In this document: positions 7,194 through 62,994 of the stretch, piece after piece
How the letters are laid out: each line of letters opens with the position of its first letter
Position numbering within the stretch: position 1 is the first letter of the stretch
IMG/VR virus record: IMGVR_UViG_3300048839_001305
Location: 1-62,994 of that record
Source of the DNA: a virus
DNA: 62,994 nucleotides
Reading direction: 5' to 3' (one strand)
The notes under the pieces: generated by a model
The model's database searches: none
What the model was told of the DNA's origin: nothing
Seen by the model: only the letters and a program-made list of their open reading frames with translations
Position numbers and translations under genes: made by a program

Positions 7194-7880
7194 ATGGCAC
7201 GCCAAAGCGACATAGCGTTGCAGCGCCAACTGAGAGAACGGTTGGTCGCAGCAGGGTACGAGAGACCATTGGATATTCGATATATCCGGCACGAGAACGG
7301 TAAACACCTTGATGCCGCTGTGTTCTATCGCGGCACTGCCCCGGTAGCCATTTTCACTACTGACGGCGAAACCTGGAGCCGGCAGAGCGATTCGGCCGCC
7401 GGACTGGAGCTTAGCGCAGGAGAACAGCCGGCACCATCGCGAGGTGAGAGTCGGGCGCCCCATGAACCCATCGAGCGCGTAGCCGATGCGTTCATGGGCA
7501 TCCATGCGCTAATTGGCGATCTGATTAAGAGGCTGACACACCTCGATGAGCAGAGTGAGGGCGCGGCGCTTTCGGCCTCACTCACCGTCACACGCTTCGG
7601 AGGCGTTCCGGTGCTGGTGGATAAGAGCTTTACCCCGGAGCGCGATTTGGCGTGGCGCAGCACCGAACACACTCCGCTGTGGAGTCTGTATTGGCGCGAG
7701 CCAGTAGCCGCCGGATGCGACTCAGTGTCCTGGTTCGTCTCGCTTGACAAGGGCGCGGACGGCCCACTGCACCTGCACGTGCGCCGGGTGCGCGACCGTG
7801 GGCGAAGGGCAGTCACGGACTGGATGATCGAGGTGGACGGGCTAGAAGAAGTCGCGGCCGACCAGGGACAAACATCATGA
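7194..7880 (+). CDS. Hypothetical protein
   Basis: 228 residues. Two ATGs lie in tandem (7191, 7194); 7194 gives better spacing from GAGGG. The C-terminal half reads as beta-rich (LTVTRFGGVPVLVDKSF, LYWREPVAAG, SWFVSLDKG). The middle is low-complexity. It overlaps the ParB-like gene by 4 bases (ATGA) and may be co-translated with it. No family recognised. Confidence 0.65.
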   Translation: MARQSDIALQRQLRERLVAAGYERPLDIRYIRHENGKHLDAAVFYRGTAPVAIFTTDGETWSRQSDSAAGLELSAGEQPAPSRGESRAPHEPIERVADAFMGIHALIGDLIKRLTHLDEQSEGAALSASLTVTRFGGVPVLVDKSFTPERDLAWRSTEHTPLWSLYWREPVAAGCDSVSWFVSLDKGADGPLHLHVRRVRDRGRRAVTDWMIEVDGLEEVAADQGQTS

Positions 7881-8932
7881 GTAACACACAACCAATTCAG
7901 CCGCAGGCCATCGAGGCCGAAGGGGCCATTGAGGCCCTCCATATCCCCGTCGCGCTCATCGACCGCGACCCGGCCCAGCCGCGCACCCACTTCGATGAGG
8001 CGGCGCTGGCGGCGTTGGCCGAGAGCATCCGGCAGCACGGCGTCATCCAGCCCATCGAGGTTGAAGAGACGCCCGACGGCCGCTACCGCATTCACCACGG
8101 CGAGCGGCGCTGGCGGGCGTCGAAGTTGGCCGGGCGGGAAACCATCCCGGCCGTCGTCGCCCCGGCGCGCGCGGCCGATGAACGGCTGGTGCGCCAGGCG
8201 CTGGAGAACCTCCACCGCGAAGACCTCAACCCCATCGACGAGGCCCGCGTCTACCAGGGTCTCATCGACCACGGCTGGGCGCGGCTGCGCATCGCCCGCG
8301 AGACGGGCAAGTCGCTACCGACCATCAACGGCCGGCTGGCGTGGCTGAAGCTGGAGCCGGAGGTTCAGCGCCTCGTGGCCCTGGGCCATCTGTCCAAGGA
8401 CGGCCGCCTGGCCGAGAAGCTCTACGTCCTCCCGCCGGAGGCCCGCGTGCCGCTGGCCGGGAAGCTGGCACGGCACGGGCTGGGGTTGCAGGCGTCCCTG
8501 CGGGCGTGCGACCGGGCGGCCGAGGAGATCGCCCGCAAGGCCGAGGCGCTGGAGGAGGGCCGCCGGCACCACGCCGACCGCGCCGCTGGCGTGCCCAGAG
8601 CCAATGGGGCGTTGGGGACGGGCGACCCGCCCGGCCGCAACGGTATGGCCCATCCTGTGCCGCTGGTGGCCTACGGGGCGGGCGGCCGTCGGGCGGTGAC
8701 GGCGACCATCGGCGCGGCGGCCGAGGCCATGTGCCGGCAGTGCGCGGTGCGCCCGGCCGGGGCCGACGTCATCCCGGCGTGGGAGATCGTCGAGCGGGCG
8801 GCGGCCGAGACGTGCGCCGCCTGCGTCAGGCGCGACGGCCCGCCCATCCCCAGGGTGTGCGAACTGTGCCAGGGGGCGGCGCTGTTGGGGCGGCTGGTGG
8901 GGGCGGTGAAGGCGCAGGAGGCGGCGGAGTAA
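7877..8932 (+). CDS. ParB/Spo0J-family DNA-binding protein
   Basis: 351 residues. The ParB N-terminal (sulfiredoxin-like) domain spans about 22-125: IPVALIDRDPAQPR, the conserved GERRWRA (75-81) that forms the CTP-binding core in chromosomal ParB, and ENLHREDLNPIDEA (110-123). A helix-turn-helix follows at about 140-165. The C-terminus is not the usual ParB dimer domain; it carries three cysteine pairs (CRQC, CAAC, CELC), suggesting zinc sites. It lies 3 bases upstream of a PAPS-reductase-like gene, an arrangement like the IbrB/IbrA pair, which favours a DNA-modification or regulatory role over plasmid partition. Confidence 0.85.
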   Translation: MSNTQPIQPQAIEAEGAIEALHIPVALIDRDPAQPRTHFDEAALAALAESIRQHGVIQPIEVEETPDGRYRIHHGERRWRASKLAGRETIPAVVAPARAADERLVRQALENLHREDLNPIDEARVYQGLIDHGWARLRIARETGKSLPTINGRLAWLKLEPEVQRLVALGHLSKDGRLAEKLYVLPPEARVPLAGKLARHGLGLQASLRACDRAAEEIARKAEALEEGRRHHADRAAGVPRANGALGTGDPPGRNGMAHPVPLVAYGAGGRRAVTATIGAAAEAMCRQCAVRPAGADVIPAWEIVERAAAETCAACVRRDGPPIPRVCELCQGAALLGRLVGAVKAQEAAE

Positions 8933-8935
8933 CAC

Positions 8936-10090
8936 ATGAAACAGGTGTCCCTCTTCGACGACCAGCGCCTGACTTTGAACGGCGCGATTGAACTCAGTCT
9001 GGCGAGTCTGGAAGAGTACGGCCGCCGCTACCGGCATTGGGCCGTGGCCTACTCCGGCGGCAAAGACTCCTCAGCCACGGTTGCGTTTGTGGCCTGGGCT
9101 ATTAAGTCCGACAAGGTTGAGCGGCCGGACTCACTCACCATCCTCTACGCCGACACGCGCCAGGAGTACCCGCCGCTGCACGCCACGGCCGTGCAGGTGT
9201 TGGCCGCCCTGCGGCGCGACGGATTCGACAGCCGCGTCGTGCAGCCGGCGCTGGACGACCGCTTCTACGTCTACATGCTTGGCTACGGCGTGCCGCCGCC
9301 GTCGAACCGCTTCCGCTGGTGTACACCAAAGCTGAAGATCGAGCCGATGGAGCAGGCGTTGGAAGCGCGTCGCGCCGAGACGGGCGAGAAGTTCCTGATG
9401 ATCAACGGCGTGCGGCTGGGCGAGAGCGCGGCCCGCGACCAGCGCATCGCCCTCTCCTGTTCCAAGGACTCAGGCGAGTGCGGCCAGGGCTGGTTTCAGG
9501 TTCGGCCGCCGGACGCGGCCGGGGACACGCTCGCGCCGCTCCTCCACTGGCGTCTGTGCCACGTCTACGACTGGCTCTACTTCGAGAACGGCCGTCACGG
9601 CTACCCGGAAGTGGCCGGGATTGCCGACGTGTACGGCGACGACGAGGTGCGCACCGGCTGCATCGGTTGCCCGCTGGCCAGCCGTGACACCGCGCTGGAG
9701 AACCTCGTCCGCCGGCCGGAGTGGGCGCACCTGCGCCCGCTCCTAGAACTCAAGGGCATGTTCCGCGAGATGAAGCGGGCCGAGTGGCGCAAGCGCAAGG
9801 CCGAGCCGGAGCGCCGCCAGGATGGGGGATGGTCCAAGAACGGCCAGCGCAAGGGGCCGCTGACGATGGCCGCCCGCGCCCACTGGCTGGACAAGGTGCT
9901 CGACGTGCAGCGCCGCTCCGGCGTCGATCTTATCAACGCTGAGGAGGAGGCGCGCATCCGCGAGATGTGGGCACTGGACATGTGGCCGCGCAAGTGGTCG
10001 GCGGCCGACATCGACGCCGACGAGCTGATCGACCGCATCTCGTCCGTCGGCGGCGACCTGGTGGTGCAGCCGGTGATGGTGAAGCCGTGA
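8936..10090 (+). CDS. PAPS reductase/DndC-like ATP pyrophosphatase
   Basis: 384 residues. The PP-loop SGGKDS (40-45) binds ATP in the N-type ATP pyrophosphatase fold. RFRWCTPKLKI (C129) and RTGCIGC (241-245) provide conserved cysteines as in DndC-like proteins, where they hold an iron-sulfur cluster used for sulfur transfer to the DNA backbone. Arg/Lys-rich segments in the last third suit nucleic-acid contact. No dndB, dndD or dndE partner was found nearby; the only obvious partner is the ParB-like gene 3 bases upstream. Possible roles are DNA modification, sulfate metabolism or an IbrA-like function. Confidence 0.8.
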   Translation: MKQVSLFDDQRLTLNGAIELSLASLEEYGRRYRHWAVAYSGGKDSSATVAFVAWAIKSDKVERPDSLTILYADTRQEYPPLHATAVQVLAALRRDGFDSRVVQPALDDRFYVYMLGYGVPPPSNRFRWCTPKLKIEPMEQALEARRAETGEKFLMINGVRLGESAARDQRIALSCSKDSGECGQGWFQVRPPDAAGDTLAPLLHWRLCHVYDWLYFENGRHGYPEVAGIADVYGDDEVRTGCIGCPLASRDTALENLVRRPEWAHLRPLLELKGMFREMKRAEWRKRKAEPERRQDGGWSKNGQRKGPLTMAARAHWLDKVLDVQRRSGVDLINAEEEARIREMWALDMWPRKWSAADIDADELIDRISSVGGDLVVQPVMVKP

Positions 10091-34147: not shown

Positions 34148-35734
34148 GTGGGAGGAGGATTGGAGCGGCTGGCCGACCCGACGGCGTGGCGCGACCGGGC
34201 GGCCTTCGAGCAGTTCCGCGTGGCCATGGCGCTGCGCGCGGCCGAGTTGCAGCGGACGACCGGGCGGCGCGACATGCCGGCCTTCGGCCGCTGGCTGAAG
34301 CAGGCCAGCCCGGAGTGGCCGTGGCACTACCGCCACCTGAAGGTTATTCGCAAGTACCTCAATCGGGTGGAGGCCGGGGAGATACAGCGCCTCATGATCT
34401 CCCTGCACCCGCGCTCCTTCAAGTCCCAGATGGTCACGGTGCGCTATCCGGCCTACGTGCTGGAGCGCGACCCGCTGACGCGCATCATCGTCGGCAGTTA
34501 CAACCAGGAGCTGGCCGAGTCCTTCTCCCTGGAGACGCGGCGCATCGTGGCCGAGCGCGGCGTGGCCCTCAATCCCAAGCGACAGAAGGTCAATGAGTGG
34601 CTGACGGCCGCCGGCGGCGGGCTGAAGGCGGTCGGCGTAGGTTCCGGCGTGACCGGGCGCGGCGGAAATCTCATTTTGATAGATGATCCGGTGCAGTCCT
34701 ATGAGCAGGCCCACAGTCGCGCCTACCGCGAACGGGTGTGGAACTGGTGGCGGACTGACCTCTTCTCGCGTCTGGAGCCGCACCCGCGTGACGGCCGCCC
34801 GCCGGCGGTCATCCTGATCATGACCCGCTGGGCGGAAGACGACCTCGCCGGGCGCATCCTGGCCGGTGAGGATGGCGAGCAGTGGCACGTGCTGCGCATT
34901 CCGGCCCTGGCCGAGACCCAGGCCGAGCGCGACGACTACAACGCCGGGATCGGACGGCCGCCGGGCGAGGCCGACCCGCTGGGCCGGGCACCGGGCGAGG
35001 CGATGAACCCGGAGCGGTTCGATGTCAAGCAGCTGGAGGCGATCCGGGTCGGCGGCGGGCTTATGTCGTTCATGGCCCTCTACCAGCAGCGGCCGAGCGC
35101 CCCGGAGGGGGACATGTTCCGCCGCGAGTGGTTCGAGGTGGTCAGCGCCGAGGCGTTCGCCGCGCTCACCGCGCCGGGCACGTCGCGGGCGGCCGTGCGT
35201 TACTGGGACAAGGCCGGGTCCAAGTCGGCCGGCAGCGCCTACACCGCTGGGGTGCTCATGGCCCGCGTCGGCGGGGACACCTACGTCGCGCACCTGGTCA
35301 TGGGCAAGTGGACGGCCCCGGAGCGCGAGCGCGTCATCCGGCAGACGGCCGCCGCCGACTTCGCCGCGTGGGGGTATGACGTGGAGACGGTGGTCGAACA
35401 GGAACCCGGCTCAGGCGGCAAGGAGTCGGCCGACAACACCGTGGACGCGCTGTCGGGCATGGGCTACCGCGTCGCCGCCGACCGGCCCACCGGCGACAAG
35501 ACGCTGCGCGCCGAACCGCTGGCCGCGGCCGCCTCGGTCGGCCGGGTGAAGCTGGTCGAGGGGCCGTGGAACCGGGACTACCTGGATATTCTGGCGGCCT
35601 TCCCCGGTGGCGCGGTCAAGGACGCCGTGGACGCCTCGTCGGGCGCGTTCATCCGGTTGACCCAGGTCGAGCGCGGCCGGCCGGCGGCGGGGCAGGCCAC
35701 GGTCACGAGCGCCAGTGACATCTTCGATGACTAG
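34148..35734 (+). CDS. terL: Terminase large subunit
   Basis: 528 residues from GTG 34148; TTG 34160, after GGAGGAGG, is an alternative. The packaging ATPase has a Walker A of the HPRSFKS type (87-93), Walker B LILIDD (175-180) and coupling motif MTRW (225-228). The C-terminal RNase H-like nuclease has YWDKAGSK (Asp354), an acidic segment near Glu417 (VEQEPGSGGKES) and KDAVD (Asp492/Asp495). It cuts concatemeric phage DNA and drives it into the prohead through the portal. Length and order are normal for the family. Confidence 0.95.
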   Translation: MGGGLERLADPTAWRDRAAFEQFRVAMALRAAELQRTTGRRDMPAFGRWLKQASPEWPWHYRHLKVIRKYLNRVEAGEIQRLMISLHPRSFKSQMVTVRYPAYVLERDPLTRIIVGSYNQELAESFSLETRRIVAERGVALNPKRQKVNEWLTAAGGGLKAVGVGSGVTGRGGNLILIDDPVQSYEQAHSRAYRERVWNWWRTDLFSRLEPHPRDGRPPAVILIMTRWAEDDLAGRILAGEDGEQWHVLRIPALAETQAERDDYNAGIGRPPGEADPLGRAPGEAMNPERFDVKQLEAIRVGGGLMSFMALYQQRPSAPEGDMFRREWFEVVSAEAFAALTAPGTSRAAVRYWDKAGSKSAGSAYTAGVLMARVGGDTYVAHLVMGKWTAPERERVIRQTAAADFAAWGYDVETVVEQEPGSGGKESADNTVDALSGMGYRVAADRPTGDKTLRAEPLAAAASVGRVKLVEGPWNRDYLDILAAFPGGAVKDAVDASSGAFIRLTQVERGRPAAGQATVTSASDIFDD

Positions 35735-41907: not shown

Positions 41908-43356
41908 ATGGGACTTCTGGATCGCTTCCGCCGTAACCCGACCGCCGTGGCCGAGACGCCGCACAACACGTCGCGCGAGACGGTTCCCCCGGCGCGGCCG
42001 TCGGAACTGGTCGAGCGCTTCGGCGTTGAGCGCGGGCGGCACGAGACCGTGCGCAAGGCGCGGGAGATGTACGGCCGCGACCCGCGCATCCAGGGGATGA
42101 TCCGCACGCTGGCCCGTGACGCGGCCAAGAACGGATTCACCGTCACCGTCGCCGAGGGGCCGCGGGCCGAGGAGGCTCAGGCGGCCATCGACGCCCTGGT
42201 GCGCCGGCTGCACCTGAAGCGCAAGCTCGACGACTACGGCCGCATGGCGATGCGTGACGGCGATCTCTTCCTGGAGCCGGGCGTGTCGGCGGCGCGGGAG
42301 ATTGTGGAGTTGACGCGCAAGCCGACCTTGCAGATGGTGCGCCTCTCCGATGAGTTCGACCGCTTTCCCGACCCGGTGCAGGCGTTCGCCTGGACGGACG
42401 CGGCCTCGGCCGCCGCCGGTTCCGTCGGCCGCGACGCGGTCACGTTCCCGGAGTTCCTGATGATCCACGCCCGCTGGAACCACGACTCCGAGAGTCGCTA
42501 CGGCAGCCCGGAATTCGCCGCCGCCGTGGGGGCCTGGAAGCGGGCCAGTGAGGGCGAACTTGACGTGGCTATCGGCCGCAAGACGCGCTCCGGCGTGAGC
42601 TACGTCCACAACCTGGTGGGGGCGTCGGAAGCCGACATCGCCGCCTACAAGAACGCCAACCAGGCGGCGCTGGACAAGCCCTTCGCCGCCCGCGCCGACT
42701 ACTTCATCAACTTCGACGGGGGCATCTCCCAACTCCAGGGGGACAGCAACCTGGGCGAGATTCGGGACGTGGAACACCACATCCAGACGATGACGGCCGC
42801 CAGCCCCGTACCGCTGGAACTGGTGGCCTACGGGGCCAACCTCAACCGCGACGTGCTGCAAGAGAAGAAGCGCCAGTACGACGAGGGTATCGCCGCCGCG
42901 CAGGGCTGGATGGCCGACCAGATCATCGAGCCGCTTATCGAGCGGCAACTGTTGCTGGCGGGCATCCTGCCGGAGAACGTCGAATACGCCATCGGCTGGC
43001 CGGCCAAGCGCGTCCTGACCCCCGCCGACATGCAGGCCCTGGCCGTGGCCGTGGCCCAGATGCGCGCCGGCGGCTGGTCGGACGCGGCCGTCTGGGCGCT
43101 CGTCGAGCGCTATCTGCCGGAGGACGTGACATTGGAGACGCTGTTCAGCGGCCCGCCCGTCGCGCCGCCGGCCGCCCCGGACAATGAAGCCGACGAGGAG
43201 GACGCGGACGACGACGAGGGGGACGACGACGGCGTAGATGACGCCACGACCGAGGCGACCGTGCCGGCGCGGCTGTATGCCGAGACGATGGGCGCGGTCA
43301 ACCGGCTCGTCGGCCGTCTGGACATGGTGATGTGGGAGGACGACGATGGCGCTTAG
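41908..43356 (+). CDS. Portal protein
   Basis: 482 residues, ATG 41908 with GGGGAG upstream. ARDAAKNGFTVTVAEGP, DGDLFLEPGVSAAREIVEL, MMIHARWN-type strands, and HIQTMTAASPVPLELVAYGA followed by EEKKRQYDEGIAAAQGWM-like helices are typical of dodecameric portals. It forms the ring through which DNA enters and leaves the head. The C-terminal 60 residues are very acidic (runs of Asp/Glu). It overlaps the next gene by 11 bases. Confidence 0.85.
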   Translation: MGLLDRFRRNPTAVAETPHNTSRETVPPARPSELVERFGVERGRHETVRKAREMYGRDPRIQGMIRTLARDAAKNGFTVTVAEGPRAEEAQAAIDALVRRLHLKRKLDDYGRMAMRDGDLFLEPGVSAAREIVELTRKPTLQMVRLSDEFDRFPDPVQAFAWTDAASAAAGSVGRDAVTFPEFLMIHARWNHDSESRYGSPEFAAAVGAWKRASEGELDVAIGRKTRSGVSYVHNLVGASEADIAAYKNANQAALDKPFAARADYFINFDGGISQLQGDSNLGEIRDVEHHIQTMTAASPVPLELVAYGANLNRDVLQEKKRQYDEGIAAAQGWMADQIIEPLIERQLLLAGILPENVEYAIGWPAKRVLTPADMQALAVAVAQMRAGGWSDAAVWALVERYLPEDVTLETLFSGPPVAPPAAPDNEADEEDADDDEGDDDGVDDATTEATVPARLYAETMGAVNRLVGRLDMVMWEDDDGA

Positions 43357-47089: not shown

Positions 47090-47620
47090 ATGGCAAACAA
47101 GACCTATGGCAAGTTCACCCGCGGCCTGCGTGATATCAAGATCACCAACGCCGCGGGCACGGTGCAGGAAGACCTGGACGCGGCGGTGACGTTCACCTTC
47201 AAGCCGACCGTTTCGACGGCCGTCCTGCGCGGCGATGACGTGGAAAAGGTGCGCTACACCTCGGTTTCCGGTGGTGAAGGCACGCTGTCGGCCGGCGGTT
47301 ACTCGTCGGCCGCCCTGGCGATCATGCTGGGCGTCACCCTGACGGTGGCCGGTTCTTCGCCCAATGAGACGACGACGATGGACATCCCGGAAGGGCTGGT
47401 CTTGCCGTCGTTCAAGATTTACGGCATGGCCTACGACAAGAGCGGTGGGGCCAAGCAGGTGCTTCTGGGCAACTGCACCCTGACCGAGCTGCCGGAAATC
47501 TCCTTCCAGGACGAGGAGTTCTACGTCACCAACCTCAACGTGGGGGTGTCGGCCGATTCCAACGGCCGCATCGCCCGCTACATCCAGCAGGAGACGGCCG
47601 CGGCGCTGCCGACGAGCTAG
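47090..47620 (+). CDS. Major tail tube protein
   Basis: 176 residues, ATG 47090 with GGGGAG upstream. Beta-rich (VQEDLDAAVTFTFKPTVSTA, SGGEGTLSAGGYSSAALAIM, YDKSGGAKQVLLGNCTLTEL, EEFYVTNLNVGVSA), with the usual length for tube proteins of siphoviruses. It lies directly upstream of the chaperone and tape measure genes, the conserved order in this morphotype. Lower arginine and higher threonine content than accessory genes fit a structural protein. Confidence 0.8.
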   Translation: MANKTYGKFTRGLRDIKITNAAGTVQEDLDAAVTFTFKPTVSTAVLRGDDVEKVRYTSVSGGEGTLSAGGYSSAALAIMLGVTLTVAGSSPNETTTMDIPEGLVLPSFKIYGMAYDKSGGAKQVLLGNCTLTELPEISFQDEEFYVTNLNVGVSADSNGRIARYIQQETAAALPTS

Positions 47621-48292: not shown

Positions 48293-51200
48293 ATGACCTC
48301 AATCTCGCTCGGCAGCGCGTCGGCAAAAGTCGATCTGGACGTCAGTGGCCTCCGGCGGGGTGTCACCGAAGCCCAGAAGGCTTTAGGCACGCTCCAGAAC
48401 ACGGCCAAGATGGCCTTCGGCGCGGTGGGGCTGGGGGCGGGGGCCGGGTTCGCCCTGGCCGTTAAGTCGGCCGTGGACATGAACGCCACGCTGGAGACCA
48501 CGCGCCTCCAGTTCGAGACGCTCATGGGGTCGGCCGATGAGGCGCGCGAACACGTCGCGGACTTGTTCGACTTCGCCAAGCGCACCCCTTTTGAGACAGG
48601 GCCGATCATCCAGGCGTCGCGGCAGATGCGGGTCTTCGGCGGTGACGCCCTGGACACCGAAGAGAACCTGACGCGCGTCGGCGACACGGCCGCGGCCATC
48701 GGCGCGCCGATTGAGGACATCTCCTTCTGGGTCGGCCGGGCCTACGCCGCCATTCAGGGCGGGCAGCCGTTCGGCGAGGCGGCCCAGAACCTCATGCAGC
48801 TGGGCGCGGTCAGCCCCCAGGTCGTGGCCGAGATGAACCGCCTGCGCGACGCGGGCGCGTCGGCCGACGAGATTTTCGCCGTCTTCCAGACCCACATGGA
48901 CGGCTTCTCCGGGGCGATGGAGAAGCAGTCGCGCACCTGGTCGGGCCTGATGGCCACCATCTCCGACTCGGTGAAGATGGCCCTGGCCGACGCGCTGCTA
49001 CCCTTCTTCGAGGGGGCCAAGTCCGGGCTGGAGCAGATCGTCGCCATTCTGGACGACCCGGACACGCAAGCCGCGATTGCCGACTTCGCCGCGCGGCTAT
49101 CGGAGATGATGGCCGTCATCATCCCCCTGGCGATTGAGCATGGCCCGGCGCTCGTCAAGGTCATGGGGGCGCTGATGGCCGTCCTGGGCGCGGTCACGGT
49201 CGTCAACAAGGCCGTCAAGGGCTACCTGGCCCTGAAGGCGGTCATTTCGGGCGTGGCGGCCTTCTTCGGCCTGACGGCCACGGCCGGCACGGCCGCCGCC
49301 GCGGGCACGGCCGCCGCCGGAGCCGCGGCCACCGGGGCCACGGCCGCCGTGGGCGGTCTGAGCGGCGTGCTGGCGGCCCTGACCGGCCCCATCGGCCTGG
49401 TCATCGCCGCCGTGGGCCTGCTGGCGGTGGCCTGGAACAAGAACTGGTTCGGCATCCGCGACCGGACGGCCGAGGCCGTAGCCAAGGTGCGGGAGATCAT
49501 CGACAGGGGGATGGCCCTGCTGCGCGGCCTGTGGGACAAGCACGGCGCGGGGATTCTGGCCGCCTGGCAGAAGATTTGGGCGGCCGTCACCCTCTACTTC
49601 CGCACGACCTGGGAGAACATCCAGTCGATCTTCAAGATTTTCGCCGCCATCTTCCGGGGGGATTGGGAAGAGGTCGGCCGCCAGGTGCGCCAGATTTGGG
49701 AGCGCACACTCCACATGCTGGTGACGGTCTTTACCAACCTGTGGGACGCGCTACGCCCGGCGCTGGCCTCGCTGGCGGCCAAGATCGTCGCCTGGTGGCT
49801 CGGCATTGACTGGGGCGACCTGGGACGCAAGGCGGCGCGGGGCATTGCCGAGGGGCTGGCCTCAAGCGACTTCGAGCGCGGCTTCGGCGGGTATGAGTCG
49901 GGGCAGCGGGTGCGCGAGGCGTTCCTGTCCGGCTGGCGTGACGCGGCCGAGGATGACAGCTGGGCCGATTGGGCGGCCAAGGAGGCCGAACAGGTCGCCG
50001 AGCGACAGGCCGCCGCCATCCAGCAGGGGGCGGAGACGGCCGATAGGGCCATGCTGGCCTACGCCGAAGGTTACGGCGAGGTGACCCAGGCGGCGGGGTT
50101 GACCGTGTCCCAACTGGCCCGCGTTCGCTCGGAGATAGGCCAGACCGGCGACGGCATGAAGCTGGCGGCCGACCGGTCGGACAAGTTCGCCGCGGGCATG
50201 GACTCGCTGACGGCCGCCGCGACGCGCAACAAGACGGCCATTGATGAGGCCGCCGCCGCCGCCCAGCGGTACGCCGCCGCCTTTGCCGGGGTGCAGGCCG
50301 ACTACGTGACCGAGCGGCCCAAAGCCGAAGACCCCCTCGTAACCCCGGAGCGCACCGTCACGGTGACGACGCAAATCAGCGGGCCGACCGAGGAGCAGCG
50401 GGCGCTGGCCGAACGGTACACGGCCGAGTTGGACAAGCTACGCGAGAGCTACGTTGAGCTGACCAGCGGCGTCGGCACGTTCGGCATGGAGCAGGAGAAG
50501 CTCGACGAGAAGATCGCCGAGACGGCCGGGGAGATCGCCCACTACGAAGGGCTGCTGGCCGGACTGCCGGCGGCGGTCAATGAGGTATCGACTAGCCAGC
50601 AGGGGCTTAAGGTCAACGTAGACGCGGTGCATCAGGGCATCTACGACCAGCTGGTGCAGATGAACGCCGCGCCGGAGGTCATTACCGCCTACGCCGTAGC
50701 CACGGGCATCATGACCACGGCCCAGGCCGAGGCCGCTCTACAGGCGGCGGCGGTCAAGGTCAAGATCGAGGAGCTGGGCACCAAGATCGCCGAGGGCATG
50801 CCCATCGACAAGGCCCTGGCCGACCTCGACGCCTTTATCTCCAAGATCGAGGGGGGCGCGGTTCCGGCGGCCCAGACGATGGCCAACGACGTGCCCCTGG
50901 CGCTGGCTCCCATGTCGGAGGAGATGTCCACCCAGGCCACGGCCGCCGGTGAGGCCGTGCCGGACAACATCGCCGGCGGCATTACCGACAACCTGGAGAC
51001 GGCGACAGAGGCAGCGACAGAGGCGGCCGACGCCGTGACCCAGGCCGTGCGCGACGCCCACGGCATCGAAGGGGAGTCGTCTTCGGTCTTCGCCGACATC
51101 GGCGCGCAGGACATCACCGGCCTCATCGAAGGCGCCGAAGGGCTGGAGGGCGACGCGGTGGACACGATGGAGGGCATCGGCCAGTCCACGGTCGACGCCT

Positions 51201-52300
51201 GGGACCCGACCATCAGCGCGGCCGAGGGCATCGGCGTGGCCATCATGGACGGCATCATCGCCGGGATCGAATCGCGGCGCGGGGCGCTGAATTCCACAAT
51301 GGAATCCGTGTCAGCCGAGGCCATCCGCGTAACCGAAGGGGCCAACGAGATCGCCTCTCCCTCGCGGCTGTATATGAACATCGGCCAGGAGATCATCGCC
51401 GGTATCGTGGCCGGGCTGGACGCCGAGCAGGACACCCTCTACGGCAAGCTGACCGACATAGCCAACACCCTCTACGGCATCGGCAACCGCGTCTTCGGGC
51501 TGCAAGCCGACGCCCTGGGGGCCGACATCGACGCGACCATCGACCGGATGACGGCCGCCTTCGACGCGTTGCGGCAGACGTTCGGCGACACGGTGGTGGA
51601 CAACCTGCTGAACATGTCGGAGAGCAACCGGGCCTTCTTCGTCGCCTGGCTGCGCGGGTCGTCGGCTTACCAGAACAACGTCGAGGTGCAGCGGAATCTG
51701 GACGAGGTCATCCGGCTGGCGAACGAGCGCAACGCGCTGGAGCAGGAGTACATCCGGCAACAGGATGAGCTGGCGGCGCTGGAAGCGGAGCGGTCGCGGC
51801 TCGACTTCCTCCAGACGCAGGTCGAGCTACTTGACCTCATCCGCGAGAACAACCTGGGCGCGGACATTCTCGACGGCCTGACGCTGGGGCTGGACGCCTC
51901 CATGACCGACATTCTGGCGGCCATGACCGAGGCCACGCGGCAACTGGTGGAGCGGGCCAACGACGAACTTGAGATCGCCTCGCCGTCGGCCGTCTTCCGG
52001 CGCATCGGCGAGCGGGTGATGGAAGGGCTGGCCGGTGGCTTGTCCCAGACCCGCGACGTGCAGGCGCAGATCGCCGAGACGACGCGGCACATGACCGCGC
52101 TGGGCCTGGCCGACACGCGGGCGCTGGAAGGGCGCTTGCAGGCCGGGCTGAACCGGACGATCCGGGTCGAGGCGCAGGGGTTGAACCCCACACAGCACGT
52201 CGCCATCTACGGCGGCTACAACGTCGAGGTGCAGGGGCGGCCGACCACCGACCCGCTGCGCGATCTGTGGCAGGCCAATCTGCCTTATCAGCGGGGGTAA
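48293..52300 (+). CDS. Tape measure protein
   Basis: 1335 residues, ATG 48293. N-terminal coiled-coil domain with the TP901-type core (TTRLQFETLMGSADEAREHV, FDFAKRTPFETGPIIQASRQ). A hydrophobic stretch follows at about 285-385 (LMAVLGAVTVV, LTGPIGLVIAAVGLLAVAWN), as in most tape measures, where it may form the DNA ejection channel. The remainder is long alternating helices ending in ASPSAVFRRIGERVMEGLAG. Its length sets tail length; at roughly 1.5 angstrom per residue the tail would be about 200 nm. It was the largest single-domain ORF until the tailspike gene. Confidence 0.95.
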   Translation: MTSISLGSASAKVDLDVSGLRRGVTEAQKALGTLQNTAKMAFGAVGLGAGAGFALAVKSAVDMNATLETTRLQFETLMGSADEAREHVADLFDFAKRTPFETGPIIQASRQMRVFGGDALDTEENLTRVGDTAAAIGAPIEDISFWVGRAYAAIQGGQPFGEAAQNLMQLGAVSPQVVAEMNRLRDAGASADEIFAVFQTHMDGFSGAMEKQSRTWSGLMATISDSVKMALADALLPFFEGAKSGLEQIVAILDDPDTQAAIADFAARLSEMMAVIIPLAIEHGPALVKVMGALMAVLGAVTVVNKAVKGYLALKAVISGVAAFFGLTATAGTAAAAGTAAAGAAATGATAAVGGLSGVLAALTGPIGLVIAAVGLLAVAWNKNWFGIRDRTAEAVAKVREIIDRGMALLRGLWDKHGAGILAAWQKIWAAVTLYFRTTWENIQSIFKIFAAIFRGDWEEVGRQVRQIWERTLHMLVTVFTNLWDALRPALASLAAKIVAWWLGIDWGDLGRKAARGIAEGLASSDFERGFGGYESGQRVREAFLSGWRDAAEDDSWADWAAKEAEQVAERQAAAIQQGAETADRAMLAYAEGYGEVTQAAGLTVSQLARVRSEIGQTGDGMKLAADRSDKFAAGMDSLTAAATRNKTAIDEAAAAAQRYAAAFAGVQADYVTERPKAEDPLVTPERTVTVTTQISGPTEEQRALAERYTAELDKLRESYVELTSGVGTFGMEQEKLDEKIAETAGEIAHYEGLLAGLPAAVNEVSTSQQGLKVNVDAVHQGIYDQLVQMNAAPEVITAYAVATGIMTTAQAEAALQAAAVKVKIEELGTKIAEGMPIDKALADLDAFISKIEGGAVPAAQTMANDVPLALAPMSEEMSTQATAAGEAVPDNIAGGITDNLETATEAATEAADAVTQAVRDAHGIEGESSSVFADIGAQDITGLIEGAEGLEGDAVDTMEGIGQSTVDAWDPTISAAEGIGVAIMDGIIAGIESRRGALNSTMESVSAEAIRVTEGANEIASPSRLYMNIGQEIIAGIVAGLDAEQDTLYGKLTDIANTLYGIGNRVFGLQADALGADIDATIDRMTAAFDALRQTFGDTVVDNLLNMSESNRAFFVAWLRGSSAYQNNVEVQRNLDEVIRLANERNALEQEYIRQQDELAALEAERSRLDFLQTQVELLDLIRENNLGADILDGLTLGLDASMTDILAAMTEATRQLVERANDELEIASPSAVFRRIGERVMEGLAGGLSQTRDVQAQIAETTRHMTALGLADTRALEGRLQAGLNRTIRVEAQGLNPTQHVAIYGGYNVEVQGRPTTDPLRDLWQANLPYQRG

Positions 52301-57470: not shown

Positions 57471-60400
57471 ATGACGACTTACTACGTGCATAAGGGAGTG
57501 GGTTCGGACTCCAACAACGGGCTGAGTTGGGCCAATGCGTTTAGCTCGCTGACGAAGGCCAAGAACACGGCCGGCAACAACGACACGATCTACGTTCGCG
57601 CCGGGTCAACGCCTTACCAGGAACAACTCATTCTGAACAAGAACGGCCAGCGGTGGTTAGCCGATGACGGGCATCAGCCGATCATCGACGGCAAGTACCA
57701 CGACCAACTGACTGACTTCAACCTCGTCAACAAGCCGCTGGGCACGTATGTCGTCCAGAAGGACAGCAAGGGATCGCAGCCTTCCCTCACTGGCATCGGT
57801 GGTGACGACAACGAGTTCGCCGGTTTCTTCATTCGGAACGGGGCGGGGAATGCCCTATCCATCACCGGCGCGAACAATCACGTTCACCACATGAAAATCG
57901 ACTTCCATTATGGCGCGAACATTCTGATTAACCCCACAGGCGACCCGAATGACTGTCACGATAACGTCGTGGAGGACACTGAAACCTCTCGTGGCAGCAT
58001 CATGATTTTTGCGCCCAAAGACCGAGAGGAGTGGGGCAAGAAAGAGGACGGTTCGCTTGCAGGCTACATTCAGGTCTGCAACGCCATGAAGAACTGCCAT
58101 CACAACACCTTCCGCCGGATCATCTGCCACCACCAGAACGGCGAGGCGTTGGTATTGGGCAAGAACAGCGAGTACTGCGTCATCGAGTTGTGTACCGTGT
58201 GGAATAACTTCCACATGAATCTGTACATGAACAACACCCGCTCAAGCATTATGCGCTGGAACACCTCCTGGGTGTCCTGGAATGATGACTTCCTGCGCGG
58301 TGACAAGCCGGGCAAAGACCCCTGGCCGACGGAGTGCATCGTCATTGGCGACGAGAAGGAAGGCGGAACTTACTCGCGCTACAACCAGGTCTATGGCAAC
58401 CTATTCGTAGGCGGCAAGGCGGTCATCGGACAGCGCAACGGCAGCAATTACGACACGGTTTTGCGCGACTTCTACTTCGGCTACAACACCTGTGTCGGCG
58501 GGGCGGGCGTCACCAAGAACATAAGCTCCTTCGGGCCGTCGGAACTGGGGGATAACCACACCAACGCCATTATCGAGAACAACATCCTCTACCACAGCGG
58601 GCCGTTTGAACTGAGCGGCCGATTCTTCCTCAGTAATACGGCTCCCAACGTCAGCGGGCGCGGAAACCTCGTATTTTGGGAGGGCCACTCCGATCTTAAC
58701 GTGCCCGGCTTCATCGGCTCAGCTATCAAGGCCGATCCGAAGCTCGTCAATCCCAAAGCGCCCATCGTGGACTACGCCGGGAACGGCGACAACCCCAAGT
58801 TGGGCACGACGGGCAAGGGGCCGTTCGAGGGGAACAACTTCAACGCCAACAACTACAAGCTGACCGGCTCATCGCCGGCCATCGGCGCGGCGGCCGGCGG
58901 CTATCCGTTTGGTGGACATCCCGGCGTCCCGCTGGCCGCGCAACGGGACATTCTGGGCGCGACACGTTCCGACCCCGACATCGGCTGCTACGAATTCGGC
59001 GGCCAGGTGACCAACTCGGTCACGGCCGCCTTCAACGCCTCGCCCGCCGCGACCACGCTGGTCGAGGGTACGCAGGTGAACTTCACCGACGCCTCGTTCA
59101 CGACCGGCTCGGCCTCCATCACCGGGCGGACGTGGACGGTGAAGAAGGCAGGGACGACCGTCCACACGGCCACCAGCCAGAACCTCGCCTACACCTTTGC
59201 CACCGACGGCAGCTACACGGTGCAACTGGCGGTGACGGCCTCCGGCGGTCTGTCGGATGACCACATTGTGACCTACACCATCACCAACGACGCGCCGGGT
59301 GTGACGGTGACGGCCGCCTTCAGCGCCGCGCCGCCGCAGACGACGGTCGAGCAGGGTACGGTGGTGACGTTCACCGACCAGTCCACCGTGCAGAACGGCA
59401 CACTGGCCTCGCGGGCCTGGGCCGTCCTGGAGTTGCCGGGCGCGACGGTGCAGGTGGCATCGGGCACGGGCACGACCTTCACCCACACGTTTAACACGCC
59501 CGGCAGCTTCCGCGTGCGCCTGACGGCCACGGCCGCGACCGGCCAGAGCGACACCGAGACGCGGGACTACACCGTCAACGCCGTGACCGCGCCGACGGTC
59601 AACGCCGCCTTTACCTCGTCCGACGGGGACGGGGTGATTAACGAAGGGGAGAGCATCACCTTCACCAACACCTCGACGGTGGCGAACACGACCATTTCGG
59701 GCTACCTGTGGACGGTGACGCGCTCAGGCGGCGCCCCGGCGACCTACACCAGTGCCAACGTCACGCACGTTTTCTCGCAGCCGGGCATTTACACGGTGAC
59801 GCTGCGGGCCGACACGGCCGCGGGCATCTCCGACACCGAGACGATGACCGTGACCGTGCTGGGGCAGACCACGGCGGGCATGGACGCCATGATCGTCCCC
59901 CACTCGTTCGCCCTGGCGACTTCGACCGGCACGCAGACGGTGACGGCCGCGGCCCTGGGCACGAAGATTCCGAAGGGGGTTCACCTGAAGGTGGTCGGGG
60001 CGACCGTGGCGGGCACGGCGGCGGCCGGGGCGCTGCTGAGTGAGGGCGCGGCCGACGGGCAGGCGCAGTGGGTACACTGCCGGTTTTCGTCCGACAATGA
60101 GGCAGTCCAGACGGCCGCCTGGCGGCGCTTCTCCACAGCGAAGATCGCCATGACCATTGACGCCACCGGGGCCAAGACAGGCGAGGCGGCGTTCGTGAAG
60201 TTCGTGCCCGGCGGCATGGAGTTGAACGTCACCGACGCCTTCCCGGCGGGCTACCTGGCTGAGGCGGTGTTCTACGCCGGGGATGCAATGGAGTTCTGGG
60301 CCGGGACGATTCCCAGCATCGGCGCGGCCGGCCAGACGCGCACGGTGACGACCGGCATCGACCAGGAGGCGGTTTACCTGTGCTCCACCTGGGCGGCGGT

Positions 60401-61655
60401 CGAGGACGTAGCCGAGGCCCACGCCGACATCTCGCGCGGCTGGGCGGTACGCAACACGACGCAGTACCACATCCGCAACCGCGACACCTCCGGCGCGGCC
60501 GAAGGGACGCTTATCTCGCGGCTGCAACCGCGCATCGCCTCGTCGGGCGACGGCACGCCGGGCTACTGCTCGATTGAGGCGGTAGCGTTCACCGCCGCCG
60601 GGTCGTTCGGGTTGCTGCCCTACGCCTCGACCATGAACCGGCCCTGCTCCATGTTCGCCTTCAAGGCGGGCGGGGCGGCCGTGTGGCTGGGCATGGTCGA
60701 GCTTGCGCCGGCCACGCCGCTGGCCGTGGCCCTGCCGTTCGAGGCCCAGACGGTGCAGGCGATCACCTCGTCCTACGGGCAGGTGACGGTTGACCCGGCC
60801 GGGCAGTTGGGCGGGACGGACGCGGAGGGCATCGGCTGGGCGACCCACTCGACCCACGGGCCGTATGCCTACTCCGGCAGTATCACCGGCGACCAGGGGG
60901 CAATACCGACCGACACCCACTCGCTGGCCGGGAGCGGCTTCCGGGCCGTGGCCGCGGGCGGCGGCGACCTGTTCAGCGGCACGCCGGCGCTGGACGCCGA
61001 TTCGTTCGACGTGACCTGGACGACGGGGCCGACCGGGCGGCCGCGGCTCATCCTGCTGGCGGTGGAGGCGGGCGAGGAGGTGGTAGACCCCGGCGACGCG
61101 CCGACGGCCGACTTCACCGTGACGACCGAGGTAGACCCGGCCGGCGGGCGGCTGGTGGCCACCTTCGACGGCTCTATCTCCAATGGCAACGGCGAGACGA
61201 TCACGGCCTGGGCGTGGGAGTTTGGCGACGGGACGACCTCGACCGGGCCGACAACGAGCCACCTGTACGAAGGGGCCGGGTCGTACACGGTGACGCTGAC
61301 CGTGACAACGGCGGCGGGGACGGACAGCAAGTCGGTGACACTGGTCGTGCCGGCCGCGCCGCCGCTGCAAGCGCCTACCCTGGTGGGGCCGATTGACCCG
61401 GCGACGAGCGGCGGCGATACGCCGAACGAGATTGACGAAGAGACGGCCAGCCACACGCACGAGATTGCGGGCAAGTGGATGAAGTTCAAGCCGCTGACGG
61501 ACGAGGAGTTCTGGGATTTCCAGTTCTCCGAACCCGACCCGGATCATGTGCTGCTGGCGTTCTGGAATGACAGGTTTGTGGTCAAGCGGCTGGATGGTGT
61601 CATCCGCCACCTCTATCCGACGACGCTGCCGCCGCCGGGATCGGAGGGGGAGTAG
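57471..61655 (+). CDS. Large tailspike/adhesin: parallel beta-helix plus PKD domains
   Basis: 1394 residues, ATG 57471 with GGGGGAGAG upstream. Residues about 1-505 are a right-handed parallel beta-helix (TYYVHKGVGSDSNNGLSWAN start, then repeated N-x-V/I turns such as NHVHHMKIDFHYGANILINP and HNTFRRIICHHQNGEALVLG), the fold of glycan-cleaving or glycan-binding spikes. PKD-type beta domains follow at about 512-607, 610-703 and 706-797. A beta-rich insert spans about 800-1205; a fourth PKD domain (WAWEFGDGTTSTGPTTSHLY) at about 1209-1292 is the most canonical. The C-terminus is acidic. It probably recognises or degrades a surface polysaccharide. Base composition in the helix part is lower in GC than neighbours. 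Confidence 0.85.
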   Translation: MTTYYVHKGVGSDSNNGLSWANAFSSLTKAKNTAGNNDTIYVRAGSTPYQEQLILNKNGQRWLADDGHQPIIDGKYHDQLTDFNLVNKPLGTYVVQKDSKGSQPSLTGIGGDDNEFAGFFIRNGAGNALSITGANNHVHHMKIDFHYGANILINPTGDPNDCHDNVVEDTETSRGSIMIFAPKDREEWGKKEDGSLAGYIQVCNAMKNCHHNTFRRIICHHQNGEALVLGKNSEYCVIELCTVWNNFHMNLYMNNTRSSIMRWNTSWVSWNDDFLRGDKPGKDPWPTECIVIGDEKEGGTYSRYNQVYGNLFVGGKAVIGQRNGSNYDTVLRDFYFGYNTCVGGAGVTKNISSFGPSELGDNHTNAIIENNILYHSGPFELSGRFFLSNTAPNVSGRGNLVFWEGHSDLNVPGFIGSAIKADPKLVNPKAPIVDYAGNGDNPKLGTTGKGPFEGNNFNANNYKLTGSSPAIGAAAGGYPFGGHPGVPLAAQRDILGATRSDPDIGCYEFGGQVTNSVTAAFNASPAATTLVEGTQVNFTDASFTTGSASITGRTWTVKKAGTTVHTATSQNLAYTFATDGSYTVQLAVTASGGLSDDHIVTYTITNDAPGVTVTAAFSAAPPQTTVEQGTVVTFTDQSTVQNGTLASRAWAVLELPGATVQVASGTGTTFTHTFNTPGSFRVRLTATAATGQSDTETRDYTVNAVTAPTVNAAFTSSDGDGVINEGESITFTNTSTVANTTISGYLWTVTRSGGAPATYTSANVTHVFSQPGIYTVTLRADTAAGISDTETMTVTVLGQTTAGMDAMIVPHSFALATSTGTQTVTAAALGTKIPKGVHLKVVGATVAGTAAAGALLSEGAADGQAQWVHCRFSSDNEAVQTAAWRRFSTAKIAMTIDATGAKTGEAAFVKFVPGGMELNVTDAFPAGYLAEAVFYAGDAMEFWAGTIPSIGAAGQTRTVTTGIDQEAVYLCSTWAAVEDVAEAHADISRGWAVRNTTQYHIRNRDTSGAAEGTLISRLQPRIASSGDGTPGYCSIEAVAFTAAGSFGLLPYASTMNRPCSMFAFKAGGAAVWLGMVELAPATPLAVALPFEAQTVQAITSSYGQVTVDPAGQLGGTDAEGIGWATHSTHGPYAYSGSITGDQGAIPTDTHSLAGSGFRAVAAGGGDLFSGTPALDADSFDVTWTTGPTGRPRLILLAVEAGEEVVDPGDAPTADFTVTTEVDPAGGRLVATFDGSISNGNGETITAWAWEFGDGTTSTGPTTSHLYEGAGSYTVTLTVTTAAGTDSKSVTLVVPAAPPLQAPTLVGPIDPATSGGDTPNEIDEETASHTHEIAGKWMKFKPLTDEEFWDFQFSEPDPDHVLLAFWNDRFVVKRLDGVIRHLYPTTLPPPGSEGE

Positions 61656-62006
61656 ATGGGCATTGTGGCGGCGTTCCTGACGGCCGCGGGCGAGCGATAC
61701 TCGCCCATGCTGGTGGGGCTGTGGCTGGCCCTGGGCGGTTTGTCGTTTCTGGCCCGGCACTGGGCGCAGACGCGCCACGGCCGCATCCGCGAGTATGGCG
61801 CCGCGGCCGTGGGGCTGGCCGCGGCCTTCGGCGGGCTGGCCCTGTTCTACGCCATACTGTATCTGGCGGACATGCCCTATCCGGCGCGGCAGGGCGCGGG
61901 GCGCATCCTGCTGACGCTGCTGGCCGGGGCGGCCGTCGGTTTCAATTGGGGCGGCGTGGTCGCCGCGGGGCGAGACCTGCGCGACGCAATCACGAGGCGC
62001 GTATGA
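61656..62006 (+). CDS. Multi-pass membrane protein
   Basis: 116 residues, ATG 61656 directly after the tailspike stop; GGAGGGGGAG upstream. About three hydrophobic helices (roughly 18-35, 47-70, 78-105) with short loops. Size, topology and position after the tail genes would fit a holin-like lysis protein, but no conserved family was recognised. Confidence 0.6.
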   Translation: MGIVAAFLTAAGERYSPMLVGLWLALGGLSFLARHWAQTRHGRIREYGAAAVGLAAAFGGLALFYAILYLADMPYPARQGAGRILLTLLAGAAVGFNWGGVVAAGRDLRDAITRRV

Positions 62007-62566
62007 GTCCTGAACTGGCGCTGACCGCGCTGCTGCTGGCGGCCGTGGCGGTCATCGTTCTGCACTCGGCCTGGCGCGGGCGGCGGTCATCGACCATCTT
62101 CACCCAGATGGATCACCTGACCGACCAACTGGAAGAGCTGACCCTGCGCGTCGTCGGGCTGGAGTTGAACCTGTCCGGCTACCGCGTGTGGTCGGCGCAG
62201 CTGCGCGGCCAGGTCGTGGAGCTGGGTGGGACGCCCATCCCGCCGCCGCCGTGGCTGGTCGTGACCGGGCCGGCGGCGGCCGACGGCGGGACGGATAACC
62301 CGCTGGTCGCCATCTACCACCGGATCGGCGACCACTTCTCGGTAGAGGAGATCGACAACCTGGCGCGGGACATCGGCCTGGACGCCGAGGAGCTGGGCGG
62401 TGAATCGAAGTCGGCCCGCGCCCGGCATCTGGTGGAGAGCGCCTACCGGAGCCACCTGTTGCCCGATCTGTTGCGCGTGGCGCAGCAGCGGCGGGCGACG
62501 GCCGACTGGCCGTCGCTGGCTTCGGTCAAGGCGTATCAGTCATCTATTGGTAAGAGCAAGAAGTGA
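62003..62566 (+). CDS. Membrane-anchored protein with effector-associated (death-like) domain
   Basis: 187 residues from the ATGA overlap. One transmembrane helix at about 4-21, a short coiled coil at 30-58, a Pro-rich linker at 77-85 (GGTPIPPPPW), and a C-terminal domain at 97-168: LVAIYHRIGDHFSVEEIDNL, ARDIGLDAEELGGESKSARA, RHLVESAYRSHLLPDLLRV. This matches the bacterial effector-associated/death-like domain pattern (hydrophobic helix, FxxEEL, then GLDxxxLGGExKxxRARxLV). In bacteria these small helical domains link sensors to effectors in immune and cell-death proteins. Here one is tethered to a membrane next to putative lysis genes in a phage. A canonical spanin or holin reading seems less likely. 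Confidence 0.7.
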   Translation: MSPELALTALLLAAVAVIVLHSAWRGRRSSTIFTQMDHLTDQLEELTLRVVGLELNLSGYRVWSAQLRGQVVELGGTPIPPPPWLVVTGPAAADGGTDNPLVAIYHRIGDHFSVEEIDNLARDIGLDAEELGGESKSARARHLVESAYRSHLLPDLLRVAQQRRATADWPSLASVKAYQSSIGKSKK

Positions 62567-62576
62567 AAGGAGAGCT

Positions 62577-62873
62577 ATGGAGAACAATCTGTTGACGATG
62601 GGCGCGGGTATGCTGTTGTCGCTGGCCTTCGGCTACCTGCCCGGGCTGCGCGGCTGGTATGAGCGCCAGGACAGCCAGCGCAAGGCGCTGGTCATGCTGG
62701 CGGCGCTGGCGGCGACGGTCGTGGTCATTCTGGTCGGGTCGTGCTACCTGCGCTACGCCTGGATTACCTGTGACGAGGCCGGGTGGAAGCTCCTGGCGTC
62801 GATGTTCCTGTACGCGCTGCTGGCCAACCAGGGCACGTACCAGATCACCAGGCATTTCAAGCAGGCGGCTTAA
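62577..62873 (+). CDS. Small membrane protein, holin-like
   Basis: 98 residues, ATG 62577 with AAAGGAGAG upstream. Hydrophobic helices at about 7-22, 38-58 and 68-85, the middle one strongest; basic C-terminus (QITRHFKQAA). Size and topology resemble phage holins, which open the inner membrane at lysis. The gene ends 120 bases before the window end. Confidence 0.65.
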   Translation: MENNLLTMGAGMLLSLAFGYLPGLRGWYERQDSQRKALVMLAALAATVVVILVGSCYLRYAWITCDEAGWKLLASMFLYALLANQGTYQITRHFKQAA

Positions 62874-62898: not shown

Positions 62899-62994
62899 GT
62901 GAACGGACTGGGCGCGGAGTACTGGCACAACCCGGCGGGGGGGGGGGGGGGGGTGCCGGCCCGGCCGCCCCCGACCCGTCCCAATATAACAAAC
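62899..62994 (+). CDS. Partial gene, PA14-like N-terminus
   Basis: An open frame from GTG 62899 runs off the right edge. Its first residues, NGLGAEYWHNP, and later an RPPPTRPNI phrase, resemble the start of PA14 domains (GLxAEYF...NP...RxDPxI), which bind carbohydrate. A run of 17 G lies between these segments, so the frame and sequence may be corrupted there. No good ribosome binding site was seen. Confidence 0.3.
   Translation, partial: MNGLGAEYWHNPAGGGGGVPARPPPTRPNITN
62937..62953 (+). repeat. Homopolymer run of 17 G
   Basis: Seventeen consecutive G residues 41 bases before the end of the window. Such a run is more likely an assembly or sequencing artefact near a contig end than a real feature, because no similar homopolymer occurs elsewhere in the 63 kb. 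Confidence 0.7.

Follow-up and report, generated by a model that had tools for sequence, protein, structure and literature searches.

An EAD7 domain on a phage-encoded membrane protein: possible bait for a host death-fold network

Why would a phage encode, among its late genes, a small membrane protein that ends in a domain of the bacterial effector-associated type (EAD)? The question is raised by an ORF found in a linear virus record, IMGVR_UViG_3300048839_001305, considered here over its whole length of 62,994 bases (referred to as the window). EADs have been proposed, from domain architecture and gene context, to join the components of bacterial immune networks in the manner of death domains, with one of them, EAD7, being proposed to recruit effectors via homotypic interaction (PMC7159879, as put forward in section 30). 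The reading favored here, to which a probability of about 0.42 is assigned, is that the ORF belongs to a late phage module in which a membrane-tethered EAD7 bait docks on the host EAD7 network and restrains it until lysis.

The gene, its neighbors and the predicted protein

Judging from its gene content, the window virus is a tailed phage, since it includes a terminase large subunit gene (Table 1). Given the presence of a ParB-like gene (ParB_N and HTH_ParB; 7877-8932) and of kin in a phage-plasmid of Candidatus Promineifilum breve (P. breve), a plasmid-like prophage lifestyle is possible. At 8936-10090, a phosphoadenosine phosphosulfate reductase-like gene is found (PHROG 12882, E 9e-124). 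The last approximately 58 bases of the window (62937-62994), where a 17-base poly-G run occurs and where departure from the sequence of the related contig L002 begins, seem to be an artefact of sequencing or assembly.

As had been claimed in the original prediction, the ORF at 62003-62566 is a real protein-encoding gene. Its codon usage scores as coding in a model trained on the long genes of the window, and purifying selection is seen relative to an 89% identical homologue on contig L003, with dN/dS being 0.24 overall. Residues 26-75 differ by eight synonymous and no non-synonymous changes, while dN/dS is 0.043 for residues 98-150 and 0.82 for residues 151-187. These values indicate that the gene is maintained but that divergence is faster in its last helices; the fast-diverging residues 151-187 (window 62453-62563) are perhaps a binding face under change.

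Table 1. Features of the window and the loci taken as phage or prophage in which EAD7 was detected.
Feature	Position	Strand	Description or basis
Terminase large subunit	34160..35734	+	marks the virus as a tailed phage
Portal-like gene	41947-43356		window structural gene
Major tail protein	47090-47620		window structural gene
Tape measure	48293-52300		window structural gene
Large tail-fibre-like protein with PKD domains	57471..61655	+	N-terminal part homologous to the L071 gene after EAD7
Upstream partner	61656..62006	+	116 aa, 3 predicted transmembrane (TM) segments; 4-bp overlap with EAD7 gene
EAD7 protein gene	62003..62566	+	187 aa; N-terminal TM, long helix, Pro-rich linker, C-terminal EAD7
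Single TM segment	62015..62071	+	residues 5-23; hydropathy and positive-inside rule
Long helix, likely coiled coil	62090..62221	+	residues 30-73; AlphaFold2 (AF2) model
Pro-rich linker	62228..62293	+	residues about 76-97; pLDDT <50 at 82-95
EAD7 domain, predicted death-like fold	62315..62497	+	residues 105-165; Pfam profile and AF2
Downstream small membrane protein	62577..62873	+	98 aa; related to a protein encoded on L117, a fragment of G347
Locus 1: window and 89% homologue L003
Locus 2: P. breve plasmid III			phage-plasmid annotated with capsid and terminase genes
Locus 3: L071			prophage, P. breve chromosome
Loci 4-6: L117, L119, L120			three contigs of related genome G347
Locus 7: L118			G341 prophage with minor-tail/tape-measure gene
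Locus 8: L045			flanked by a portal-like and a MuF-like gene, each scoring below cut-off
Locus 9: L021			near C39-like peptidase and terminase
Locus 10: L022			viral by IMG/VR; flanking proteins examined gave no phage profile
Locus 11: L095			upstream of M23 peptidase gene
Locus 12: L093/L094	L093:3-959; L094:776-2542		EAD7 inside terminase large subunit ORF (L094, about 2069-2260; 43.6 bits, cut-off 32); two ~4-kb viral contigs of nearly identical sequence

The EAD7 gene starts within an ATGA sequence that also holds the stop of the upstream 116-aa gene, an overlap that suggests translational coupling to this multi-TM gene. Whereas the original prediction had placed the ORF beside holin-like genes, what stands is that both flanking genes encode small membrane proteins; both score below the holin cut-off (best, 11.1 bits against 32). 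The downstream 98-aa protein and its L117 homologue share 45.7% identity over 92 aa (E 8.7e-16), and the N-terminal part of the large protein encoded at 57471 resembles the L071 protein encoded downstream of EAD7 (27%, E 3e-23). On contig L002, where the EAD7 protein is 100% identical to that of the window, the EAD7 region is followed by a calcineurin-like phosphoesterase and then by a protein of 1128 aa that contains a GH25 lysin domain. PHROGs yielded no family for the EAD7 gene or for either of the small genes flanking it, PADLOC matched no defence family and a PDB sequence search gave no match. Scanning the window neighbors for a core NTPase or effector domain revealed none, but only the tail protein and small membrane proteins, such that the window module lacks the NTPase or effector, be it fused or in the same operon, by which an EAD-coupled conflict component is recognized.

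At the level of the protein, the N-terminal TM helix (a single segment by hydropathy) and the Pro-rich linker originally described were both recovered. The effector-associated/death-like module previously placed at residues 97-168 corresponds to EAD7 (PF19960; E 2.6e-13; 50 bits against a Pfam cut-off of 32), with the profile search returning no phage lysis family. A chance match is excluded by the profile score, by the independent homologues and by the lack of any EAD7 match in 14 control genomes (0/14). As for the claimed coiled coil, the AF2 model contains a long helix at residues 30-73 that is consistent with, and likely corresponds to, such a structure.

The EAD7 part is predicted to adopt a death-like fold. 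The AF2 model (pLDDT 89.9, pTM 0.81) is all-helical and comprises five long helices and one 3-residue helix, in keeping with the six-helix death-like fold originally expected. Foldseek alone returned nothing at E <= 0.001, with 8srz at rank 3 (TM 0.57-0.59). When 179 of the Foldseek chains were given a second look by VIA-align, the top 13 rows were all death-fold domains (Z 8.4-5.7), the first other fold appearing at rank 14. The leaders were bacterial CARDs, namely, 9cs8, 9cs7 and 8ss1 (Z 8.4-8.2), and 8srz and 9frr (Z 7.9), followed by the CARDs of CARD8, Apaf-1, RIP2, NOD1 and BinCARD, and the death domains of ankyrin-1 and FADD. A Z of about 8 is modest for helical folds; the ranking is, however, a consistent one and in line with the profile match. 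A comparison with predicted viral structures (BFVD) gave no match reaching E 0.001.

With no lysine or arginine before the TM segment and three within the 15 residues after it, the window protein is predicted to be oriented N-out, with the C-terminal domain in the cytoplasm. The same charge distribution (N flank/C flank) was seen in the window and L003 proteins (0/3), the P. breve plasmid protein (0/3), the L071 protein (0/5) and the L045 protein (0/1, resting on a single charge). In L021, the order is reversed, with an N-terminal EAD7 and a C-terminal TM segment preceded by three lysines or arginines. As such, EAD7 is predicted to be cytoplasmic in all five TM-anchored types in this set, to which L117, L119 and L120 do not belong, even where the order is reversed. 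The EAD7 proteins of L022, L095 and L118 contain no predicted TM segment, and the segment predicted in L094 falls within the terminase portion. The phage EAD7 proteins scanned gave no match to an effector domain above cut-off, the sole enzyme fusion being to terminase.

Two other assignments were considered. An i-spanin (Rz) or periplasmic spanin would be N-in with a periplasmic coiled-coil C-terminus, whereas the hydropathy-based charge pattern predicts C-in. Membership of an unrelated phage lysis family is disfavored by the EAD7 profile match and the predicted topology.

Recurrence in phage loci and pairing with small membrane genes

EAD7 was detected above the Pfam cut-off in at least 12 loci taken as phage or prophage (Table 1). 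L119 and L120 have tail genes in common with the window, as does L071. In L071, the gene pair also recurs: the upstream partners share 33.7% identity over 92 aa (E 1.3e-7; hhalign probability 69) and the second genes share 32.8% over 67 aa (E 2.4e-6), these E-values being for single pairs and without composition correction. The upstream 116-aa partner is thus probably homologous to that of L071. Homology among upstream multi-TM partners is supported for this pair of loci only, with those of P. breve plasmid III, L045, L021 and L022 appearing from their sequences to be alike only in kind.

One gene order is common to L071, P. breve plasmid III and L117, namely, a 3-TM gene, the EAD7 gene, a beta-helix-type gene (in L071 so read by eye and from kinship to the window gene at 57471) and a small TM gene; the window differs in that the 57471 gene comes before the pair. 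The small TM gene that ends this order, distinct from the pair itself, matches Phage_holin_9 in L071 (36.1 bits, cut-off 27) and falls just below the cut-off in the P. breve plasmid (25.4 bits), while that of L117 is kin of the 98-aa gene of the window.

To quantify the pairing, an ORF of 70-220 aa, predicted to contain two or more TM segments and directly adjoining the EAD7 gene, was sought. Such a gene adjoins EAD7 in 8 of the 12 phage loci (window/L003, P. breve plasmid, L071, L117, L118, L045, L021 and L022), as compared to 2 of the 49 host EAD7 ORFs with enough flanking sequence (16 of 65 near contig ends being left out; Fisher p 6.6e-6), it being noted that the phage loci are partly related and hence not fully independent in this test, and that prophage copies may be hidden among the host loci, the neighborhoods read by eye in that genome search being those of L066, L071 and L045. 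The four phage loci without an adjoining multi-TM gene are L119, where the scripted match is a fragment, lacking the start, of a 266-aa protein and was counted as negative, L120, L094 and L095, where two ORFs separate the EAD7 gene from a 2-TM gene on its upstream side. One of the two positive host cases, L066, itself encodes a TM-EAD7 protein; proteins of this kind are encoded by 14 of 58 host ORFs (7 of 65 near a contig end being left out). At L066:5309-6378, a 3-TM gene is followed by the TM-EAD7 gene in a phage-pair-like arrangement beside a large surface-type protein.

Beyond these loci, a search of five records found EAD7 neither in L012, a 6.3-kb fragment, nor in L013 (47.7 kb), the two kin of the window by terminase among them, with L013 being the nearest kin outside the window's own group. 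The 50,697 INPHARED records gave no EAD7 match with E <1, but only two weak rows (E 10 and E 3). Some scans of collections returned only the L002 and L003 contigs again, and no further relative was obtained from genome contigs with the P. breve protein or from viral contigs with the P. breve and L117 proteins; as these scans employed short exact or degenerate peptides, the number of loci is not a prevalence in viruses.

A tree of the EAD7 domain (74 rows, nine of them from phages, and only 63 columns) places phage EAD7s in several positions, with seven label changes being needed for the phage rows, although many forks are unresolved and the bootstrap had not settled. This placement fits repeated capture; a single phage origin is disfavored yet still statistically allowed (p-AU 0.066, lnL 38.6 lower, not rejected at 5%), and a clade of the window, L003, L071 and P. 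breve is likewise not rejected (p-AU 0.353). A closest relation of the phage EAD7s to one particular host EAD7 was not found in this tree.

The host EAD7 repertoire and possible roles of the phage protein

EAD7 is present in at least 10 of 301 evenly drawn Chloroflexota genomes with up to 20 candidates per genome being scored. In the family of P. breve, it is found in 51 of 52 genomes, at up to 41 places per genome, and in P. breve (G343) itself at 23 places, phage copies included. The 17 further P. breve EAD7 ORFs examined combine the domain with nSTAND1 (four), TIR (three), trypsin plus EAD8, EAD8, AAA/TPR or HHH (one each), with the remaining six bearing no other domain above cut-off. Host fusions overall include STAND, TIR, trypsin, CHAT and caspase domains, the counts from host loci L053-L092 being biased as these were picked for short ORFs. 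EAD7-TIR-FGE-sulfatase fusions occur in three copies in the single genome of P. breve (L125, L128 and L130). By its sequence, then, the P. breve cell that holds two of the phage modules is one that also holds the proposed EAD7-linked network. The LCFDLG motif, usual in host copies, is absent from the window-type EAD7s, such that homotypic binding may have changed.

According to the favored reading, the late module would pair a small multi-TM protein with a coiled-coil protein anchored in the membrane, the latter displaying its EAD7 death-fold domain from the membrane to the cytoplasm. There, the phage EAD7 would bind or cap host EAD7 proteins by homotypic contact, acting as a dominant-negative bait that keeps EAD7-wired death and immune proteins of the host inactive before lysis, with the phage's own lysis genes then releasing the progeny. 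Such restraint is ranked first because an effector domain is lacking from the phage EAD7 proteins, and is the most likely of the roles considered given also the identity of the domain as EAD7 in 12 of 12 loci, the pairing with membrane genes, the predicted cytoplasmic location and the repertoire of P. breve. At the same time, expression from a late-gene position could come too late for a decoy, and a role in lysis, as considered next, accounts at least equally well for the presence of membrane and lysis genes beside EAD7. Moreover, the terminase kin L013 has no EAD7, and hosts make TM-bearing EAD7 proteins too.

Decoy, lysis trigger and superinfection exclusion, as originally put forward, may each still apply. 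Ranked after decoy or restraint is a possible, if on balance unlikely, role as a trigger, whereby the phage EAD7 would recruit host EAD7-linked TIR, peptidase and STAND proteins to the membrane, with host suicide assisting bursting. The presence near EAD7 of a GH25 lysin (L002), Phage_holin_9 (L071), an M23 peptidase (L095) and a C39-like peptidase (L021) would suit such hijacking, and a precedent exists in the CARD-NLR-like LypABC system, described as being needed for lysis by Caulobacter gene transfer agents (PMC13236601). Several of these phages, however, already have lysins or a likely holin; in L118 and L045, moreover, the module is surrounded by tail or head genes, and in L094, EAD7 is placed inside terminase. 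A host partner would be unnecessary were EAD7 and the coiled coil to oligomerize and so cluster or time membrane lysis proteins of the phage. Death folds polymerize, residues 26-75 show no non-synonymous change relative to L003 and the gene overlap suggests translational coupling to the multi-TM gene, all in keeping with self-assembly. Against this distinctly improbable explanation are the occurrence of EAD7 in viruses with no host link or in prophages whose hosts themselves bear EAD7, its going undetected at E <1 in INPHARED and its insertion in a terminase. Least probable of all, it would seem, is prophage-borne defence, in which the pair would be a membrane effector recruited by host EAD7 sensors so as to kill cells invaded by other phages. 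While P. breve carries two modules, as prophage and as phage-plasmid, and while TM-EAD7 proteins exist in hosts, the overlapping genes of the window and L071 lie downstream of tail genes and share their orientation, an arrangement like that of a late operon, which would be expected to be silent in lysogens.

A broader and rather doubtful proposal is that phages of EAD7-rich Chloroflexota have wired their lysis module into the death-fold network, with the late, membrane-bound EAD7 adaptor docking STAND, TIR and peptidase proteins of the host where the holin is located, such that suicide and lysis would become one controlled event. Were this true, death-fold adaptors would be shared by bacterial immunity and phage lysis, having been captured several times, even inside a terminase.

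Comparison with known systems

The EAD7 domain is already known; what appears to be new is its occurrence in phage late or lysis modules, for which no report was found. In the open-licence literature, outside of which most subscription papers lie, neither a phage-borne EAD nor work joining EAD with holin, or Promineifilum with phage or prophage, was found, and the available portions of PMC7159879 and PMC8195603 gave no mention of a phage-borne EAD. This compact membrane module suggests that viruses interact with the bacterial EAD immune network, and the phage EAD7 offers a testable reagent for binding, blocking or triggering host EAD7 proteins.

The module resembles the vWA-MoxR/STAND conflict systems, as described by Kaur et al. 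(2020; PMC7159879), in that EAD7 is recognized by profile, is helical and occurs in many host copies. It differs in that membrane proteins bear the phage EAD7 and in that neither these proteins nor the neighbors examined contain a core NTPase or effector domain. The closest solved folds are the bacterial CARD/death-like domains 8srz, 8ss1 and 9cs7/9cs8 (Z 7.9-8.4, rmsd 2.0-2.6 over 71-73 residues), although identity is 8-16% and these CARDs belong to host proteins. Virus-encoded death folds are found in animal viruses, as in vFLIP, the EHV2 E10 CARD and an iridovirus CARD, where such proteins play an inhibitory role. E10 and the cod iridovirus CARD protein appeared as weak rows in BFVD (E 4-5), which does not imply kinship. 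With decoys of the vFLIP/E10 kind, the phage protein shares, according to the model, a death fold without an effector domain, its inhibitory action being a prediction. Like Rz i-spanin and holin-accessory cassettes, the module combines a small TM protein and a helical protein near lysis genes, yet the C-terminus of the phage protein is predicted to be cytoplasmic and EAD7 is added. Finally, LypABC offers a death-fold network tied to the release of phage-like particles, being, in the part of its description available, a host tripartite peptidase-NLR system without a phage-encoded EAD7 (PMC13236601). The phage module can accordingly be set beside two parallels, namely, animal viruses that carry death-fold proteins and LypABC, which links a CARD-NLR-like complex to particle release.
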